Part shown: piece after piece, positions 6,751 to 17,653 of the stretch | Layout: every line of letters starts with the position of its first letter | Numbering within the stretch: the first letter of the stretch is position 1 | Notes under the pieces: generated by a model | Databases searched by the model: none | Told to the model about the DNA's origin: nothing | Seen by the model: only the letters and a program-made list of their open reading frames with translations | Virus record (IMG/VR): IMGVR_UViG_3300030117_002533 | Span: 1-24,473 of that record | Strand: one strand, 5' to 3' | Origin: a virus | Length of the DNA stretch: 24,473 bases | Program-made: the position numbers and the translations under genes

Positions 6751-6978
6751 TTACACAAGTTCTAATCTTAATTCTTGAATACCACAAGCATTTCTGAAAC
6801 GCTTAGCATCAAAATTATCATTGAACTTTGAGAATGTACTAATGAAATCATTTTGTAAATGTTCCAATACTTTCAGACCATACCATTTTTCGTCATCAGT
6901 ACTTTCATTGCTATAAAATACAATCATTGCTCTTTCGTTTATATCCTTTGCAATTTTCTCAAAATGCTTCCTTGTCAT
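6751..6978 (-). CDS. Small phage protein (75 aa), first gene of the leftward operon
   Basis: The opening MTRKHFEKIAKDI and the closing pattern FDAKRFRNACG match a type of small phage protein seen in many tailed phages, of unknown function. Helical, soluble, one Cys. TAAGGAGG lies five bases before the ATG. It follows the long non-coding region and is the promoter-proximal gene of the leftward operon. Confidence 0.7.
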   Translation of the reverse strand: MTRKHFEKIAKDINERAMIVFYSNESTDDEKWYGLKVLEHLQNDFISTFSKFNDNFDAKRFRNACGIQELRLELV

Positions 6979-7211
6979 TGTTCCTCCTTAGTTATTATGT
7001 AAATAAGTATAGACGATAGATAATATATGTCTGGTATTTCCTTAATATTTTTTTCCCACTCTCTTTATGGATTTGATTGCCTGGGTTTCAATATGGGTGG
7101 GGGGTGTTCTAAAGTTTTTCCTATAAGTCTTTACGCATATACTCACAACACCAACACAGAATAAAACATTTAACCACAGATGAATTCTAGAAAACTTTAA
7201 AAGGTTATATA

Positions 7212-7248
7212 TGGTAAAAATTACCAATTAAACAAATGGTAATGTCAA
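7212..7248 (-). promoter_or_regulatory. Leftward early promoter with three TGGTAA half-sites
   Basis: On the - strand a perfect -35 TTGACA (7248-7243) and a weak -10 GGTAAT (7225-7220) are 17 bases apart. Three 6-base half-sites cover it: TGGTAA at 7237-7242 abutting the -35, TTACCA at 7221-7226 over the -10, and TGGTAA at 7212-7217 at the expected start site. This is a typical repressor-controlled layout. A transcript from here would have a leader of about 230 bases before the gene at 6978. Confidence 0.55.
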
Positions 7249-7475
7249 TCTGCGTCCCCCATTATTCTTTGTCTTAGATACCTATATTTAACTTACACAA
7301 AGTGAACAATACAGTAAACAATTAGTCTACTATATATTGTGTGCTTTTAGTGACCTACTACATCTAGTGGGTGAACTATCACAGTAATATTGGTTAGTGT
7401 TACCTATTTGTTTTAGAGTATTCTTACACTCTTTACATTTCTTCAATAGTGTCTAGTCTAGCTGCTTTTTTATAA

Positions 7476-7600
7476 CAGGCATCCAATGCAATGTAGTTGC
7501 GATTCTGCCTGATTACTTAGTTTGGTTAGACCTTGGGTAGCTTACTTGTCTTTCTAGTTGGTCAGGTTTCCCTGGTAAGCCTTTTGTGCTCCTGATGCCC
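7476..7600. ncRNA. Candidate structured RNA (strand undecided)
   Basis: A GC-enriched island (about 46% over 7531-7610 against about 24% just after) with nested complementary segments. These are CAGGCA (7476-7481) with TGCCTG (7506-7511), enclosing GCAA/TTGC; GCTTAC (7540-7545) with GTAAGC (7575-7580), enclosing CAGG/CCTG; and GGCATC (7478-7483) with GATGCC (7594-7599) closing the whole. The first and last pairings compete. No reading frame explains it. Confidence 0.35.
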
Positions 7601-7640
7601 TCTTTACCTGTATCTATCTACTCCTAAATAATATTTATAG

Positions 7641-7668
7641 TTGAATAATAACACAGAGATAATATAAT
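7641..7668 (+). promoter_or_regulatory. Rightward promoter for the packaging/structural module
   Basis: TTGAAT (7641-7646), a 16-base spacer, and a perfect TATAAT (7663-7668). It points toward the small ORFs and terminase starting at 8074. A second candidate, an extended -10 TGC-TATACT (7743-7751), lies 80 bases further on without a clear -35. Confidence 0.5.
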
Positions 7669-7692
7669 ACAAGTACCTGTATGTGGGATATA

Positions 7693-7776
7693 CTAAATAA
7701 TATGCAAGAAATGGTTTCTGGGGCAACTCATTAACCATTTTTTGCTATACTGAAGATAACATGATTCTTTATTCAT
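7693..7776 (-). CDS. Possible short peptide (27 aa)
   Basis: Read directly. A strong CAGGGAGGAA lies just upstream of the ATG, but the spacing is only about three bases and the peptide (two Cys, Trp, mixed) resembles nothing. It starts within an inverted repeat (AACATGA/TCATGTT, 7758-7779), with another (CCCTAG/CTAGGG, 7793-7809) upstream. Could be a leader peptide or chance. Confidence 0.3.
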   Translation of the reverse strand: MNKESCYLQYSKKWLMSCPRNHFLHII

Positions 7777-7792
7777 GTTCCTCCCTGTATAG

Positions 7793-7809
7793 CCCTAGCT
7801 TGTCTAGGG
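7793..7809. repeat. Perfect inverted repeat CCCTAG-N5-CTAGGG
   Basis: Six-base GC-containing arms around a five-base loop, between the zinc-finger gene stop (7833) and the short ORF start. No U-tract follows on the - strand; on the + strand one lies 16 bases away. A standard terminator is therefore not supported; an operator or RNA hairpin fits better. Confidence 0.5.
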
Positions 7810-7832
7810 TGTGCAAAATAAAAAATTTTTTT

Positions 7833-8039
7833 TTACGCCTGAGGTTCTTGTAAACCATCAGGCAGCTTTCTACCTTTGATTCTAGGAAATGATTTAGGTT
7901 TGTGATTATTACAATATCTATACTTGTTATATTTAGATATAACTGTATCGCAGGTTTCCTTCAAACATATTCTTCCACTACTATATGAAGTAGAGGGTTT
8001 GTAATTAGGATTTTTATTTCCTTTTATATAATCACTCAT
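7833..8039 (-). CDS. Small zinc-finger protein (68 aa), possibly leaderless
   Basis: Contains Cys25-x4-Cys30-x12-Cys43-x2-His46, with the block CDTVISKYNKYRYCNNHKPK between and after, resembling CCCH-type zinc fingers in small phage proteins. The flanking tails are basic (KGNKNPNYKPS and RIKGRK), suggesting nucleic-acid binding. Unlike nearly all other leftward genes it lacks a Shine-Dalgarno. A TATACT box ends only nine bases before the ATG, which would place the transcript start at or next to the start codon. It sits alone on the - strand, divergent from the terminase operon, so it could regulate late genes. Function is inference. Confidence 0.62.
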   Translation of the reverse strand: MSDYIKGNKNPNYKPSTSYSSGRICLKETCDTVISKYNKYRYCNNHKPKSFPRIKGRKLPDGLQEPQA

Positions 8040-8133: not shown

Positions 8134-8307
8134 ATGAAGATTAAAGGTGTTGATGTATCTAAGTTAACTAAGAGACAACAAGATACAATGAAAAAACATT
8201 CTAAACATCATAGTAAAAAACACATGCAGTATATGCACAACTCTATGCGTAGGGGTGCAACTTTTACACAGGCACACAACAGAGCTATGAAAGCAGTAGG
8301 TAAGTAG
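8134..8307 (+). CDS. Small His/Lys-rich protein upstream of terminase (57 aa)
   Basis: Read directly. Contains a SKLTKRQQDTMKKHSKHH start, six His and many Met/Lys, and a C-terminal helix (FTQAHNRAMKAVGK). I recall similar small proteins next to terminase genes in aquatic phages, with no known function. It occupies the usual place of a small terminase subunit, but is only 57 aa and has no visible HTH. No Shine-Dalgarno is evident. Basic and helical, so DNA binding is plausible. Confidence 0.6.
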   Translation: MKIKGVDVSKLTKRQQDTMKKHSKHHSKKHMQYMHNSMRRGATFTQAHNRAMKAVGK

Positions 8308-8327
8308 TGGCTGAGTATCGTGGATAA
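8307..8327 (+). CDS. Six-residue mini-ORF bridging to the terminase start
   Basis: GTG at 8307-8309 overlaps the TAG stop of the 57-aa gene by one base. The frame reads Met/Val-Ala-Glu-Tyr-Arg-Gly and stops with TAA at 8325-8327, overlapping the terminase ATG as TAATG. Terminase has no Shine-Dalgarno, so this could be a translational coupling step; it may also be accidental. Confidence 0.25.
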   Translation: MAEYRG

Positions 8328-10225
8328 TGCCTAGACCTAGGTGTAAAAGAAATGAATATTCTGGTGAGGAATGTCGCAAAGTAGCTGTTAAAGGTGGCAA
8401 GTTTTGCAGTACTCAATGTAGGCGTAGAGTCAGTTATTTAAAAAGTTTATCTAGTGATAAAAAAGTAGATAAGAGAGGGTCACATGAATCTAAATCTAGA
8501 GGAGCTAAATATCCAGATTTTGTTCAATACTATGCTGCTGATATAGAAAACAAAAAGAAAACACATCAACAAGTAGCAGACCTACTAGAAATAGATAGAA
8601 GTCAAATTACAAGAATGTATGCTGCTTATTTAGAAGATAAAGATAATTTTGAAGCACAACAAGATTGGTCTATATCAGAAGATACAGTTGAATCATTAAA
8701 AGATTTTAAAGAGTTTAGAGATAGGTATTTTAAAACAGAAACTGGTGACCTATACGAAACAGCAGAGTTCCATGAAAACTGGATAAACAACATTGTTGAT
8801 GCTATAGAAAATGGTAAACAACAAATGATACTAAGTCCACCTAGACATGGTAAAACAGATTTGTTAACACACTTTGCTGTATGGCAGATATGTAATAACC
8901 CTAACATAAGAATTATGTGGGTAGGTGGTAATGAAGATATTGCTAAGAATGCAGTAGGTGCTGTGCTTGACCATTTAGAAAACAATGAACAATTAAACGA
9001 AGAAATAAATGGACCAGGAGTTAAGTTCCAACCTAAAGTTAGGTCAGGTAAATCTTGGTCATCAGGACAATTTACTATAGGTACTAGAACAGTTACAGGT
9101 ATTAAATCACCTACTATGGTAGCTGTAGGTAAGGGTGGTAAAATACTTTCTCGTGACTGTGACTTAATTATTGCTGATGACATAGAGGACCATGGTACAA
9201 CAATACAACCTAGTGCTAGAGAACAAACAAGACAATGGTGGACAACTACTTTGTCATCTCGTAAAGAGGAACATACTGCTGTAGTTGTTATAGGGTCAAG
9301 ACAACACCCTGAAGATTTATATAACTTTTTACTAGAAAACCCTGAGTTTGAAACAATAGTAGAAGAAGCACATAGTTCAGAATGTGTATTACCAGAAACA
9401 GATATAGAAGAACATCGTGACTGTATGTTATGGGCAAGTAAAAGAACTTTTAAATGGTTAATGTCACAAAAAAATAATGCTGACACTACAGGTGGTAGAG
9501 CTATCTATGAAATGGTATATCTAAACAAAGCATTTGTAGAAGGTATAACAATGTTTAACTCAGAAGATATAGACCAATGTAGAGATGTAAACAGAGTAGT
9601 AGGACAGATACCAGCAGGTACGCATTTAATTGCAGGACTTGACCCAGCATCTACAGGTTTTCAAGCATGTTTCTTATGGGCAGCTAATCCAGAAACAGGA
9701 GAATTGTTTTTAGTAGATATAGAAAACGAACAGGGTGGTGGAATTATACAAGCAAGAAAATCTATAAAGAAATGGTATGATAAATATAATTTATCTCATT
9801 GGGTTATAGAAGAAAATGGTTTCCAAAAAGCTATTAGACAAGATACAGAGTTAAAAGAATACTGCAGTAGATTTGGTATATATTTAGAAGGTCATCAAAC
9901 ACAGAAAAACAAATATGACCCAATTTATGGTGTTGGTAGTATGCAACAAATGTTTGAGCAAAAGCTAATAAATTTGCCTTATGGTGATACAGAAAGCGAA
10001 ACTAAGAGTAATATATATCGTAGACAACTAATTTATTTTTCATCTGCTGCTAGTAAAGCTAGTAAAGCAAGAAACTATAAATCAGATGTTGTAATGGCTA
10101 GTTGGTTTCCATTAAAAGTTATAAGAAGATTAGGAAAAGAACGATTAGCTGAGGTAGGATTAGATTATGAACCAAGTTTTGGAGAATGGGATATAAGCGA
10201 TATGAACGAAAGCCCTTGGGGTTAG
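8327..10225 (+). CDS. terL: Terminase large subunit with N-terminal zinc/HTH extension
   Basis: This 632-aa DNA-packaging motor has an ATPase domain with Walker A SPPRHGKT (170-177) and Walker B LIIADD with acidic residues at 284-288. Its RNase H-like nuclease has Asp439 in AGLDPAST, Glu495 in VIEENG and Asp587 in KSDVVMA, the three metal-binding acids. Residues 1-35 hold Cys6, Cys16, Cys27 and Cys31, a probable zinc finger. Residues about 60-105 look like a helix-turn-helix (THQQVADLLEIDRSQITRMY). Typical large subunits lack this extension, so it may take the DNA-recognition job of a small subunit. The enzyme cuts concatemeric DNA and pumps it into the prohead. The portal follows after one base. 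Confidence 0.93.
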   Translation: MPRPRCKRNEYSGEECRKVAVKGGKFCSTQCRRRVSYLKSLSSDKKVDKRGSHESKSRGAKYPDFVQYYAADIENKKKTHQQVADLLEIDRSQITRMYAAYLEDKDNFEAQQDWSISEDTVESLKDFKEFRDRYFKTETGDLYETAEFHENWINNIVDAIENGKQQMILSPPRHGKTDLLTHFAVWQICNNPNIRIMWVGGNEDIAKNAVGAVLDHLENNEQLNEEINGPGVKFQPKVRSGKSWSSGQFTIGTRTVTGIKSPTMVAVGKGGKILSRDCDLIIADDIEDHGTTIQPSAREQTRQWWTTTLSSRKEEHTAVVVIGSRQHPEDLYNFLLENPEFETIVEEAHSSECVLPETDIEEHRDCMLWASKRTFKWLMSQKNNADTTGGRAIYEMVYLNKAFVEGITMFNSEDIDQCRDVNRVVGQIPAGTHLIAGLDPASTGFQACFLWAANPETGELFLVDIENEQGGGIIQARKSIKKWYDKYNLSHWVIEENGFQKAIRQDTELKEYCSRFGIYLEGHQTQKNKYDPIYGVGSMQQMFEQKLINLPYGDTESETKSNIYRRQLIYFSSAASKASKARNYKSDVVMASWFPLKVIRRLGKERLAEVGLDYEPSFGEWDISDMNESPWG

Positions 10226-12580: not shown

Positions 12581-15500
12581 ATGGTAAATCAACCTATTGG
12601 ACCATACACATTTGGTGAAGAGTACAACCAAATAACAGAAAAAAGTAGAGCATTAGAATTATCTTATAACAAAAAGAAAAACCAATTTACACAAGACCAA
12701 GTAGAAAGAACTAAAGAGTTAGCTAAGTTATATCCTGGAGCTCAATCTGGTTTGATTTCATCTGCTGTTTTAAAAGGACTTGATAATAAACAATTTGAAG
12801 AACTTTTAAAACTGCAGTACAAAGCTGTACCTAAATCACAACCATCATTTCCAAATACTATGGGTAATGATGTAGTAAATTCAGCTATGTTTAATTCTAC
12901 TTTTGGTAAAGTATTTAATTCAGTAGGAGAACAATTTAAATTACCTGAAGGTATGAAGTTTTGGAATAAATCAACATACCAAAGTGAACCTGTATATGGA
13001 ACACTTAAAGGATTATTTAGAACAATAGCATTAATTGGTGGTGCAGGAGCAAACGCAACTGTGGGTAAACCAGTAAGAGCGTTTGTAAAAACAGCAGAGG
13101 AAACTATAGAAGAACCTTTTTTAGGATTAGGTCAAATACAAAGACAAAAGGCAGAGGATTTAGCTGCTAGAGGATTAGCAGGTGACCCAGATGTCACAAT
13201 AGGAGATGTTGCTGCTGCAAGAGATGAAGCTAATAAAACAGAAAAAATTGGTCAACTTGCTGGTGTTGCTTTAACACTATCTGCTTTAACAGGTAAAGGT
13301 CCTACTGGTTTAAAAAAAGTTATTGGTAAAACATTTGCTGACAACTACAAAAATGCAGGAGCGTCTACTGCAGGTATAGCAGCACAAAAAATAAGAGAAG
13401 GTCAAGACCCTGGTGCAGTATGGAAAAGTTTTGGTGAAGGATATTTTCCACAAGGAAGAATAGTCGCTGAAGCATTAGAAGAACAAGAAGCCTATAAATA
13501 TAGAGGTCAAAATATAACTGCTGGTAGATATGTTGCAGAACTTGCAGGCATAGAACAAAACACTTTGTTATTTAATGCAGTTTCAGGAACTTTTGATTTT
13601 TATAAAGTTTTAGTAACTGACCCATTTTTAGTTGGTTCTAAAATATCAAAAGGTATAAAGTTTGCTAACAGTACACAAGGTAAAATACAAAAAGCATACA
13701 GAGCAGGAGAGTTTGAAAAGATACCTAGTATTGTTGATAACTTTTTAAATAGTCCTAAATCAGAAGGATTTCTAACAGCGTTTGCAGAATCAAATGATTT
13801 TAAAAAAATATTTGATGCAGTTAAAGACCCAGAGCTAGCACTTAACTTAGTTAAAACTAGAAATATAGATGAAGTAAAAAATCTTATGCAAGGTTTTGTA
13901 ATACAAAATCAAGGACTTGGAATACCTGCAATTATAAGGTCAAAAAATAGTTTAGGTTACAACAGAAATTTAGTAGATGCTTTAATGACAGCAAGAAAAG
14001 GAGATAAAGCTCCTTACTCCAAGTTTGGTGAATGGACACCTGACTCAGGAGCTGCATATGATGATGCTGCAGATTCTGTAAAAGTATTTAACCAATGGTT
14101 AGTAGAATTTAAAATACCAAAAAATATTGCTAATCAATTGTCTATAGAGTTTGCAGAAAAATCTGTAAAAGGTAATAGACCAGAAATGTCAAGAATATTA
14201 TTTGAAAAATTACCTTTACAAGTTAAAGAGCTAATGAAATCAGAAGGTTTTTCTAGTAAAACAATATCTAAAATAGATGACTACTTTGATGAGTTACAAG
14301 GAAAAATAAAAATATCAGGAACTAATAAATATGATATTCGTTCTTATTGGGCAAGTTTAGGAAAAACAGAAGGTGGAGGTTTGCAACCAATAGAAAAAGT
14401 ATTCAAAGGTATGCGAAGTATTCCTGGACCAGATGGAAAGCCAATAAATATGCCTACTCCATTTGATATTGGACAACACTTTGATGAGTTATGGTCATTA
14501 GGAAAACCATTAGATATAAGAAGAGCATTATCAACAGTTGAAAAATACACAAACATTGATGTTGGTAAAACTAAATTAGTAAATCTTGCAAAAAATTATG
14601 TAGATGATTTACCAGAATCTTCAAGATTAAAATTACCTGTAGAAAGTTTGTTAAAAAATGTAGTTCCAAAAGTAGATATGTTAGTAAGTTTTATACCTGA
14701 AACTTCAAGAAACTTTATTGACGATGTATTGTGGCCAGCTCAAAAAATATGGACAGGAGCACAACTGATTACAAGAATAGCCTGGCCTCTTAGATTATTT
14801 GGTGAAGGTCAATTTAGAATGGGATTAGATGGATTAGATAACTGGATAGAAAATCCTATTTCTACTTGGGCTTTTTCTAATTATTACAATGATATATTAG
14901 TTCAAGATTTTAGAAAAGGTATTAGACCTAGCAAAAGAGCTTATGATGAAATAGTTAGAGGTATAGTTGCTGATAGGCCTACAAATGTATTTGGTAAACA
15001 AGCACAAAAACAATTTGCACAACAAAGTTGGAAAAGAGTTATAAAGGGTGGAACTAAAAAAGAAAATTATGTTTCATCATGGCAACTTAATTTAAGATGG
15101 CCAATGGAAAGCGATTTAGCTCAATCAATAGCTAAAGAATTATTAGATGGTTCTGATTTAGTAAAAACAAAACAAAGTTTTTGGAATGGTTCACTTGCAA
15201 AAATTAGAAATCAATTGAATGATACAAGATATGATTTTGATGGTAACCCAATTAATCCTTATGTAAAACTTAATGATGCAGAAAAATATGTAGATGATTA
15301 TGTTCAATGGATTATGGACTTAACAAAAGGTGATGAAGAATTACTTGCTTTAATAGCAAATAGACAATTAAATTACCAAGGAAAGGTTATTACATTTAAT
15401 GATTTTGACAGATGGACACCAGCTAATCAAAAATTAATAAAACAATTTTTATCTGACAAATACGATATAGCACCAGATGTTTTATCAGCACCTGATTGGA

Positions 15501-17653
15501 TAACTAATCCACAAATAAAAAGTAAAACATTTGAAAGTTTTAATAAAGTTTCTCAATATTTATGGTACACCCTTGGAGAGTTGCCTGATGCAGAACTACA
15601 AAGAATACCAACATTCACTCAATACTATTGGCAAAATGTTGCATCACAATTACCATTTGGAGATTTAAAATCTGTAAAACATTTTGATGATTTGATAAAA
15701 CAATCAAAAGTTCCTGAAGAAGTTGCTCAACTGTATATTGCTGGCAAAAATGCAGCTATAAAAAAATATGGTTCTATAGAAAAAGCAATTAAAAAAATAC
15801 CAGAAAATATGAGATTATCTATAGATGAAATTAATGATTCTGCAAAAATGTATTCATTAGAAATGCACAACAGATTGTTGTATAACTTAAACCAAAAAGG
15901 ATATGTTGCTGAAGCATTACGATTAGTATTTCCATTCTTAGAACCTTGGAAAGAAATAATATTGAACTATCCAAGATTGTTTTTTAAGAATCCAGCAGGT
16001 CTTAGAAGAATACAATTAGCAACAGACAGAGGAACTAACAATGGTTTCTTTTATACAGACCCTGTATCAGGAGAAAAGTTTTATGTTACAGCTCCTACTG
16101 ACTTAACAGAGTATGTATATGGAATAGAAGATAGAGATTTGACAGGTTTTGAAGAAGATGTTCAATTAAGACTGTCATCACCTGTACAAGGTGCTAACTT
16201 GTTTACACAATCACCAATACCAGGACCAGGACCTATTATGAAATTTGCATATAAAACACTTAAAAAGTTTATGCCAGACTCACAATGGACACAAAAAATT
16301 GAAGATACAATATTTCCTTATGGCTTAGGTGACCCTGGATTAGAAGGTGCAACTATTGGTCAATTACCTGTGTATATGCAACAAGCATACAATACAGGAA
16401 CAAAAGGTAGTTTAGATGATATGGCTTGGGCTAATGATGTTGCTAACTCTTCTAAAATTATGACTAAAGCATGGTTTGAAGGATATTTGCCTTATGACCC
16501 AAGAACAGATGAAGGTAGAGTTTTATTTGAAAAAGATGTTATAGATTTAGCTTCAAGAATAAATGTATTTGAAAGTATGGCCAAGGGTATAGCTCCATCA
16601 TCTCCTAGAGCAGAAGCTGCATATAAATTACAACTTAGTGATAGACTTGCAGAACAAGCAGATTTTTTAGATAAAGAAAACCTTATAGAAGTATTAGAAG
16701 CCTTAATGCCTGCTGATTACGAGTTTGGTAAATATGATGATGATTACTTTACAAACACAGTTATAACTGCATTGTTTAGACAAGTTATTAATCAAGTAGA
16801 ACCAGGAGAAGAGTATTTAGCGTATCAAACAATTGCATCATTAATTGGTGGCACACCAGAAGATATGGATGCTGTATATACTGCTGTAGTTTTAGTACAA
16901 GGAAACACAACAACATTAGGTACTAGCTTGCCTTCAACAGAAGAAGAAGTTGAATGGTTTAATGCACATCCTGAAAAAGCAAAAGAGTTTAAATATACAT
17001 TCTCATTATTTGCACCAAATGTTTATGAGTATGATTTATTAGATGTTAACTCTTTTTATAATCAAGTAGATGAAGGACAAAGAATAACATTATCATTAGA
17101 TGAAAAAATAGAAAGAGCACAAGAAACATTTTTTAGAATAATGTTTAATTATCAATCTAAACATATTAGAGAAGCAAGAGCACAAAATAGAATATCAGAA
17201 AAAGATGCACAAGCTGAACTATCATTAATAAAAGCAAATCTATTAGAAGTAGTACCACTTGGTACAGATGCAAGAGATTTACCTAAAACAGAACCAGTAA
17301 GTAGATATGTTGTATTTGAAGAACTAAAGAAAGCAGCTAATGATGAGCTTATACTTACTACTGAATCAGGAAAAGGATTGCAAAAGTTTTTATATGGTGA
17401 TGATAAAAATGTTGGTTTTATGTATATGATAGAAAAAATACAAAATGAAAAGAAAAAAGTTACAACAAGTGGTGTAGAAGTATTAAAACCAGAAAATGAA
17501 GCAATAGAATATTTAGGAAGACAAGAATCAGCACAAGCTATGCGTGATTACTTATTTAACTGGGGAGCAAAAGTTGTAGAAGAATACCCAGACTTTGCAG
17601 GAATATATAGAACAAAGTTCTTATCCACAGTAGAATATCAATATACGCCATAA
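12581..17653 (+). CDS. Very large virion-associated protein candidate (1690 aa)
   Basis: By far the longest gene here. No enzyme motif was recognised. Seen: a charged N-terminus; two uncharged Gly/Ala/Leu-rich segments near 143-160 and 225-240 that could insert in a membrane; a Trp/Arg-rich middle near 717-740; a Pro/aromatic block near 1115-1140 (FPFLEPWKEI); and an acidic helical C-terminus. Length and position in the head module, rather than in a tail region, suggest an internal or ejected virion protein, as with large core proteins of podoviruses. It lacks the repeated coiled coil of a tape measure protein. No Shine-Dalgarno at its ATG, three bases after the previous stop. The role is inference. 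Confidence 0.6.
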   Translation: MVNQPIGPYTFGEEYNQITEKSRALELSYNKKKNQFTQDQVERTKELAKLYPGAQSGLISSAVLKGLDNKQFEELLKLQYKAVPKSQPSFPNTMGNDVVNSAMFNSTFGKVFNSVGEQFKLPEGMKFWNKSTYQSEPVYGTLKGLFRTIALIGGAGANATVGKPVRAFVKTAEETIEEPFLGLGQIQRQKAEDLAARGLAGDPDVTIGDVAAARDEANKTEKIGQLAGVALTLSALTGKGPTGLKKVIGKTFADNYKNAGASTAGIAAQKIREGQDPGAVWKSFGEGYFPQGRIVAEALEEQEAYKYRGQNITAGRYVAELAGIEQNTLLFNAVSGTFDFYKVLVTDPFLVGSKISKGIKFANSTQGKIQKAYRAGEFEKIPSIVDNFLNSPKSEGFLTAFAESNDFKKIFDAVKDPELALNLVKTRNIDEVKNLMQGFVIQNQGLGIPAIIRSKNSLGYNRNLVDALMTARKGDKAPYSKFGEWTPDSGAAYDDAADSVKVFNQWLVEFKIPKNIANQLSIEFAEKSVKGNRPEMSRILFEKLPLQVKELMKSEGFSSKTISKIDDYFDELQGKIKISGTNKYDIRSYWASLGKTEGGGLQPIEKVFKGMRSIPGPDGKPINMPTPFDIGQHFDELWSLGKPLDIRRALSTVEKYTNIDVGKTKLVNLAKNYVDDLPESSRLKLPVESLLKNVVPKVDMLVSFIPETSRNFIDDVLWPAQKIWTGAQLITRIAWPLRLFGEGQFRMGLDGLDNWIENPISTWAFSNYYNDILVQDFRKGIRPSKRAYDEIVRGIVADRPTNVFGKQAQKQFAQQSWKRVIKGGTKKENYVSSWQLNLRWPMESDLAQSIAKELLDGSDLVKTKQSFWNGSLAKIRNQLNDTRYDFDGNPINPYVKLNDAEKYVDDYVQWIMDLTKGDEELLALIANRQLNYQGKVITFNDFDRWTPANQKLIKQFLSDKYDIAPDVLSAPDWITNPQIKSKTFESFNKVSQYLWYTLGELPDAELQRIPTFTQYYWQNVASQLPFGDLKSVKHFDDLIKQSKVPEEVAQLYIAGKNAAIKKYGSIEKAIKKIPENMRLSIDEINDSAKMYSLEMHNRLLYNLNQKGYVAEALRLVFPFLEPWKEIILNYPRLFFKNPAGLRRIQLATDRGTNNGFFYTDPVSGEKFYVTAPTDLTEYVYGIEDRDLTGFEEDVQLRLSSPVQGANLFTQSPIPGPGPIMKFAYKTLKKFMPDSQWTQKIEDTIFPYGLGDPGLEGATIGQLPVYMQQAYNTGTKGSLDDMAWANDVANSSKIMTKAWFEGYLPYDPRTDEGRVLFEKDVIDLASRINVFESMAKGIAPSSPRAEAAYKLQLSDRLAEQADFLDKENLIEVLEALMPADYEFGKYDDDYFTNTVITALFRQVINQVEPGEEYLAYQTIASLIGGTPEDMDAVYTAVVLVQGNTTTLGTSLPSTEEEVEWFNAHPEKAKEFKYTFSLFAPNVYEYDLLDVNSFYNQVDEGQRITLSLDEKIERAQETFFRIMFNYQSKHIREARAQNRISEKDAQAELSLIKANLLEVVPLGTDARDLPKTEPVSRYVVFEELKKAANDELILTTESGKGLQKFLYGDDKNVGFMYMIEKIQNEKKKVTTSGVEVLKPENEAIEYLGRQESAQAMRDYLFNWGAKVVEEYPDFAGIYRTKFLSTVEYQYTP

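Follow-up and report, generated by a model that had tools for sequence, protein, structure and literature searches.

A predicted pseudoknotted RNA family at the early/late divergence beside the large terminase gene of uncultured phages

The pRNA of phage phi29 is a phage RNA with a covarying loop pairing of 4 nt. HK022 put and the Bacillus EAR element are processive antitermination leaders—RNAs that modify the polymerase—and put is present in two copies per phage, one in each of two early transcripts. GOLLD and ROOL are structured noncoding phage RNAs with tertiary loop contacts and of unknown function (PMC12286853). Most marine motifs of a survey from 2010 carry Rfam accessions, with Ocean-VI standing without one in the table of that survey (PMC2864571).

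Here, we describe an RNA to be placed next to these systems. It lies in an uncultured phage, for which the window—the whole stretch of 24,473 nt that was analyzed—was available. As judged from covariation among relatives, the minus strand at window positions 7620–7473 almost certainly encodes a member of a structured RNA family, located beside the gene of the large terminase subunit.

The intergenic region as a single sequence

A sequence-only reading of the window had pointed to 7440–7620 as a GC-rich stretch devoid of reading frames, whose nested complementary arms might mark a structured RNA. The enrichment is genuine: the stretch has a GC content of 41.4% versus 32.7% for the window, a value reached by just 2.6% of all 181-nt stretches therein, and within 6979–7832 the GC content of such stretches peaks at start position 7444. 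It is also frameless for the most part, with the exception of 7440–7446, which lie inside a small minus-strand ORF (7446–7330). The complementary arms turned out to fold at the level of shuffled sequence (z = 0.01 on the plus and 0.26 on the minus strand), and the fold energy of the surrounding 854-nt region is equally unremarkable against shuffles on both strands (z = −0.51 and −1.13). From a single sequence alone, the claim of a structured RNA would not stand. As fold energy carried no signal, the analysis moved to the comparison of relatives.

Relatives and conservation

The gene beside the RNA (8327–10225) encodes a large terminase subunit of the PHROG 38 type; the check for the type of packaging ATPase covered this window neighbor. 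Terminase and portal have their nearest isolates in Streptomyces siphoviruses, at an identity of ~20–27%. Two further genes of the window may be mentioned in this context. The late region of this small phage holds a 1690-aa protein (12581–17653), and part of a 57-aa gene (8194–8276) shows 79% DNA identity to a hypothetical gene of Prochlorococcus phage P-SCSP2, where the counterpart is located between the portal and capsid genes.

A homology search with the terminase yielded 80 viral loci. An iterated nhmmer search with the noncoding region as query gave 56 matches—some spanning just one end of the query—in which a small ORF, a linker that varies, and a highly conserved block (7519–7622) can be made out. 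This block reaches loci whose terminase identity is down to ~53%. Across 7620–7521, 20-nt blocks show 98–100% identity to the six more divergent of ten aligned near relatives, and the blocks flanking this island (7720–7621 and 7520–7461) show 63–94% identity to the same six. In the 16 distinct cores from terminase-derived loci, paired changes are already visible.

A pattern scan of viral contigs added at least the loci L081–L196, and the abundance of the RNA is hence to be read as a lower bound; since some contigs carry two locus ids, locus counts do not equal counts of independent genomes. Alignment A1 comprises 56 representatives, obtained by clustering at 96% the 89 distinct cores among the matches listed. 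Its rows beyond the terminase-derived loci came via a sequence pattern, which makes the invariance of the pattern letters circular there; the set of 16 rows found by terminase homology only is free of this circularity.

A covariance model of 96 positions, R1, scores the window copy at 80.1 bits, and this is its single hit in the window record, possibly a fragment. It matches 52 of the 80 terminase loci. Among the remaining 28, those inspected stop short of the site, except for L045–L048, in which the site is present and the RNA absent under R1 even with filters off. Among the matches listed, R1 recovers all 100 pattern-derived loci L081–L180 and all 16 of L181–L196.

The loci L045–L048 belong to a terminase sub-lineage without the RNA (further members are L206, L208, L210, L211, L215, and L216), which bears unrelated sequence at the same spot. 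For the L045–L048 group, only near-identical copies of this replacement sequence were found, too alike for covariation. In L048 (2773–3003, minus strand), and likewise in the other members, a pseudoknot-like complementarity can be seen between CCAGCTTTAAG and the downstream motifs AGCTGG and TTAAAG. Having lost or replaced the RNA, this sister group provides a natural experiment.

Covariation and fold of the RNA

The core of the RNA (7620–7525, minus strand) coincides with the island of 98–100% identity and with the span of R1. In A1, a structure of 21 base pairs is paired in 93.8% of all cells, with a covariation score of 0.873 versus 0.222 for shuffled alignments; none of 500 shuffles reaches the observed value, and sliding the structure along the alignment gives scores of at most 0.116. 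The 16 terminase-derived sequences behave alike, with 97.7% of cells paired and a score of 0.881 versus 0.243 (again 0 of 500 shuffles). Read on the minus strand, the wobble positions amount to 60 G-U cells versus 4 A-C cells; since G-U cells far outnumber A-C cells, the minus strand is taken to be the RNA strand. Evolution has kept the shape while the letters change, which therefore argues for a working RNA.

The predicted fold is nested, with P1 enclosing P2, P2 enclosing P3 and P4, and P4 in turn holding P5 and P6. P1 pairs UAGA (7616–7613) with UCUA (7530–7527), and all four pairs change on both sides within the 16 sequences. P2 joins GGU (7608–7606) to ACC (7538–7536) and reads RGU/ACY in the family consensus; its outer pair covaries between G-C and A-U (37:19 of 56 in A1), and the other two pairs are invariant. 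Between P1 and P2 lies an internal loop made of UACA (7612–7609) and CAAGG (7531–7535), the latter invariant also in the 16 motif-independent sequences. P3 (7598–7588) is a hairpin with a covarying stem and a 7-nt loop, AUCAGGA (7596–7590; AUC-RRR-N in the consensus), and is connected to P4 by an AAAG joint. In P4, formed by GCUUAC (7580–7575) and GUAAGC (7545–7540), covariation is seen as both-side changes in all five modelled pairs, with 100% of cells paired. P5 (CAGG-GAAA-CCUG, 7574–7563) varies in length among relatives; three of its four pairs change on both sides, and 79% of its cells are paired in A1, in which P5 is partly misaligned. P6 (7557–7550) is a mini-hairpin, C-UAGAAA-G, whose closing pair (columns 76–85) alternates between G-C and C-G (35:21) and is paired in 56/56 sequences. 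U7556, the first base of its loop, forms a base pair with A7590 in the loop of P3: in A1, this loop–loop pair (columns 31–77) appears as A-U, C-G, or G-C (32:15:9), likewise in 56/56.

The P3 loop bears a second interaction. Its tetramer CRRR faces an exact complement YYYG, which is located 38–67 nt 3′ of CAAGG. In the window, these are CAGG (7594–7591) and the CCUG (7479–7476) within GCCUGUUA (7480–7473). Among the matches listed, 126 of 126 distinct homologues are perfectly complementary, by way of four pairing types (CAGG/CCUG, CGGG/CCCG, CGGA/UCCG, and CUCG with CGAG), versus a mean of 47.4 and a maximum of 66 in 2000 swaps. In the terminase-derived set, 35 of 35 are complementary, versus a swap mean of 12.8 and a maximum of 22 (2000 swaps). 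The sole extra row that did not match in the first pseudoknot count is L200, which reaches just 18 bits with R1; L038, whose loop carries ACC rather than AUC, falls outside the first pseudoknot pattern and is admitted by the second. Judged by this covariation, the loop tetramer and the downstream tetramer are a predicted 4-bp pseudoknot. Counting both strands, the RNA would measure at least ~140 nt in the window and about 150 nt overall.

The element is hence 7620–7525 together with 7480–7473 on the minus strand. Place and kind had been named correctly by the sequence-only reading, and strand, extent, and details of the fold had not. A covariation test among homologues, whose failure would have counted against an RNA, came out strongly in its favor; one-strand use of G-U pairs, the pseudoknot, and a strand-specific promoter-like site described below lend further support. 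The most conspicuous hairpin, at 7476–7511 (CAGGCA...TGCCTG), was rejected as the main structure, as it lies mostly in the ill-conserved stretch 7481–7520 (identity 0.63–0.71); part of its 3′ arm (7479–7476) is in fact the pseudoknot partner of the loop at 7594–7591.

Search for known RNAs

At gathering thresholds, none of the 4227 families of Rfam 15 matches the window or ten homologous loci. Relaxing the search to E ≤ 10 for window positions 6900–7900 and eight further loci gave chance-level hits only, far under the family cut-offs. The Rfam scan that had been suggested along with the RNA thus names no family in the window; in the window and the scanned homologous loci, no model of a known riboswitch class, of GOLLD or ROOL, or of phi29 pRNA matches. 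The further suggestion of a large GOLLD-like RNA finds no support: there is no match to GOLLD or any other Rfam family in the window and the scanned homologues, the window holds no tRNA, and what all relatives share spans only ~150 nt.

Three nucleotide queries against 50,697 records of isolate phages found no copy, the matches being short and chance-like (E 0.8 or worse). A literature search, with subscription papers and preprints outside its reach, returned no description of the RNA. A pattern scan of 84,980 species genomes gave five stretches. R1 confirms L199 and the pair L201/L202—one contig and seemingly one copy—scores L200 at just 18 bits, and has no hit in L203, so that confirmed copies in species genomes come from two contigs only. 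One of these, for which the ORFs are at hand, has this terminase and portal as well and is hence read as phage sequence that ended up in the bin of a metagenome-derived genome. The best reading of these searches is that the predicted RNA family is new, being absent from Rfam 15, the searched isolate phages, and the searchable literature.

Genomic context

The RNA was located in 172 loci, 158 of which (among the loci listed) hold at least 700 nt 5′ of it. A divergent terminase gene is found there in 147 of the 158, and the other 11 hold only 700–2181 nt on that side; in compact genomes, the terminase start is ~80 nt away from the RNA. Gene order hence shows the predicted RNA to lie at the early/late divergence, beside the large terminase gene.

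Upstream of the core, a −35-like hexamer TTGTAT (7672–7667) is followed after 16 nt by a −10-like TATTAT (7650–7645) that is preceded by TG in the manner of an extended −10; the arrangement TTGTAT–16 nt–TATTAT is likewise present in the window-clade loci L002, L019, and L022. Across relatives, 98 of 116 distinct upstream stretches carry the extended TG at their best site on the RNA strand, and just 19 of the 116 do so on the other strand; the promoter-like −10 precedes UACA by a median of 35.5 nt. The mean sigma70 score is nearly the same on both strands (9.64 on the RNA strand versus 9.44), which leaves TG and the fixed spacing as the only source of the strand preference. With this promoter-like site upstream and minus-strand early genes downstream, the RNA is by sequence placed at the start of an early transcript, as would be expected for an RNA of the put type.

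Downstream, the first ORF preceded by a Shine–Dalgarno sequence follows the core at a median distance of 604 nt. Its identity is not conserved: the first downstream proteins of 108 loci fall into 64 clusters, the largest of which has ten members. Terminator-like hairpins are not in excess within the 500 nt past the core, with 11 versus 12 in shuffles (104 loci; shuffled within 50-nt blocks, which does not preserve dinucleotides), and the RNA therefore appears continuous with the early operon. The promoter-like site, the variable first gene, and the lack of a terminator excess, taken together, lead us to place the RNA at the head of the early transcript, untied to any one gene.

Several further observations concern this neighborhood. 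Between the noncoding region and a 68-aa minus-strand gene, at 7814–7842 of the window, relatives carry inserts of ~100 to 1300 nt. A 75-aa early protein (6751–6978, minus strand) shows a weak match, below cut-off, to the replication terminator protein family (E 0.0009). In L097, L084, and L153, a first early ORF has strong hairpins (GGTTCTCGAACT...AGTTCGAACC) just ahead of its ribosome-binding site.

Extent of the RNA at its 3′ side

Past the pseudoknot strand, separate clades have conserved noncoding blocks of their own, which in some of them extend over several hundred nucleotides. In an alignment of 31 sequences of one clade, APC-corrected covariation finds trustworthy stacked pairs solely in the core, and the long 3′ helices that RNAalifold proposes for the same 31 sequences at whole length are left unsupported by it. 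Across 25 distinct rows, a weak hairpin ~120–150 nt past the core is paired in 67 of 75 cells, a count that never rose above 65 in 1000 swaps. We claim no 3′ structure past this one weakly covarying candidate.

In the window clade, the downstream neighbor is a cysteine-rich ORF of 38 aa (7446–7330, minus strand; TTG start, CxxC...C), which starts 78 nt past the core and lies outside the RNA. Its product (KCKEC...YYCDSSPTRC) has no Pfam match; across relatives, the ORF starts with TTG or ATG and shows in-frame indels. The block 7340–7448, considered as a further piece of RNA, is in fact this ORF with its in-frame indels.

Possible functions

The position of the RNA, its promoter-like site, its indifference to which gene comes first, and the lack of a terminator suggest a leader that acts in cis on the early operon as a whole and not on a single gene, a reading to which we give about an even chance. 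The RNA would then form the 5′ part of the early transcript, as a leader that folds while emerging from the polymerase. The folded RNA might contact RNA polymerase or a host factor, and this contact might keep the long early operon transcribed. Processive antitermination as the action of such a leader is proposed tentatively, by analogy with put and EAR as the closest working parallels, and as a possibility rather on the doubtful side. Counting against a leader are the near-equal sigma70 scores on both strands, conserved blocks that in some clades reach hundreds of nucleotides further than a small leader needs, and the sister group around L045–L048, which does without the RNA altogether.

The main rival is a larger RNA acting in trans, GOLLD/ROOL-like in spirit and possibly 400–600 nt long, of which the pseudoknotted ~150-nt domain would be the universal 5′ part and the clade-specific blocks the rest, cut or terminated before the early genes. 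The median of 604 nt of noncoding sequence behind the core, blocks conserved clade-wise over several hundred nucleotides, the weakly covarying second hairpin, and the variable downstream gene speak for such an RNA; the terminators show no excess, however, trustworthy stacked pairs stay within the core of the 31-sequence clade alignment, and the window clade has a coding ORF that starts 78 nt behind it. We regard this reading as possible, if rather unlikely. A similarly speculative place is given to a broader view, in which the RNA would be a new class of phage RNA machine: a pseudoknotted 5′ domain, kept throughout a family of uncultured phages, would head an ornate RNA of 400–600 nt that acts in trans or on the host polymerase early in infection, and one sub-lineage would have exchanged it, in the same place, for a folded RNA of unrelated sequence.

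Riboswitch, origin RNA, and packaging RNA are less likely. In the first of these, an aptamer would bind a ligand and, through its pseudoknot, switch the early operon on or off; this would suit the compact fold, the pseudoknot, and the many invariant unpaired bases (UACA, AAAG, and CAAGG), as found in many aptamers. However, the first genes—64 clusters in 108 loci—point to no single pathway, no Rfam riboswitch matches, and no expression platform is visible, which makes a riboswitch improbable. Still less is to be said for a replication element, in which the early/late divergence would hold an origin RNA or a structured preprimer. The RNA does sit at the minimum of the cumulative GC skew and at the predicted head of a leftward transcript, but the skew changes where the coding strand does, the region shows no conspicuous iteron array, and no initiator was recognized among the scanned proteins; an origin as plain DNA element would moreover leave the RNA-type covariation unexplained. 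Very unlikely is a packaging RNA that serves the neighboring terminase in the manner of phi29 pRNA, with the tetramers pairing between RNA copies: its constant neighborhood to terL (147/158) and the covarying 4-nt loop pairing would fit, but the neighboring TerL belongs to the ordinary type, PHROG 38, Rfam gives no match, and a linker of 38–67 nt permits simple intramolecular pairing. That there is no functional RNA at all, and conservation arose by chance or from coding, would agree with a fold energy at shuffle level and is scarcely credible given covariation, pseudoknot, and strand-specific G-U use, also in the motif-independent set, and given indels within the element whose lengths are not divisible by three.

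An RNA family with covariation of this strength, a pseudoknot that covaries as well, and a constant place in the genome is a solid discovery. In a widespread group of uncultured phages, the RNA would mark where the early transcript begins, offering a direct handle on how these take over transcription, and the covariance model R1 makes further members easy to find.

Comparison with known systems

The RNA resembles phi29 pRNA in being a phage RNA with a covarying loop pairing of 4 nt. In contrast to pRNA, it lies next to the gene of an ordinary TerL, is predicted to be transcribed away from terL as the head of the early operon, and its tetramer pairing is probably intramolecular. Like put and EAR, it is a folded RNA placed, by sequence, close to where an operon transcript would begin and indifferent to the identity of the first gene; its fold and length are different. 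Moreover, put occurs twice per phage, and R1 finds a single match in the window record, which is possibly a fragment.

Among marine and cyanophage structured RNAs, manA, wcaG, PhotoRC-II, and Ocean-V were likewise found by comparison (PMC2864571). The comparison covers these four, which have Rfam accessions, and none of them matches here. GOLLD and ROOL are similar in being structured noncoding phage RNAs with tertiary loop contacts (PMC12286853). They measure several hundred to more than 800 nt, whereas the universal part here covers ~150 nt; the universal domain of GOLLD is at the 3′ side and the one described here at the 5′ side. GOLLD and ROOL often lie near tRNA islands, whereas the RNA family described here is positioned beside terL in a window without tRNA. 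A homo-oligomeric, RNA-only cage is a feature of GOLLD and ROOL; the RNA described here is, by sequence comparison, a compact, pseudoknotted domain predicted at the head of an early operon.
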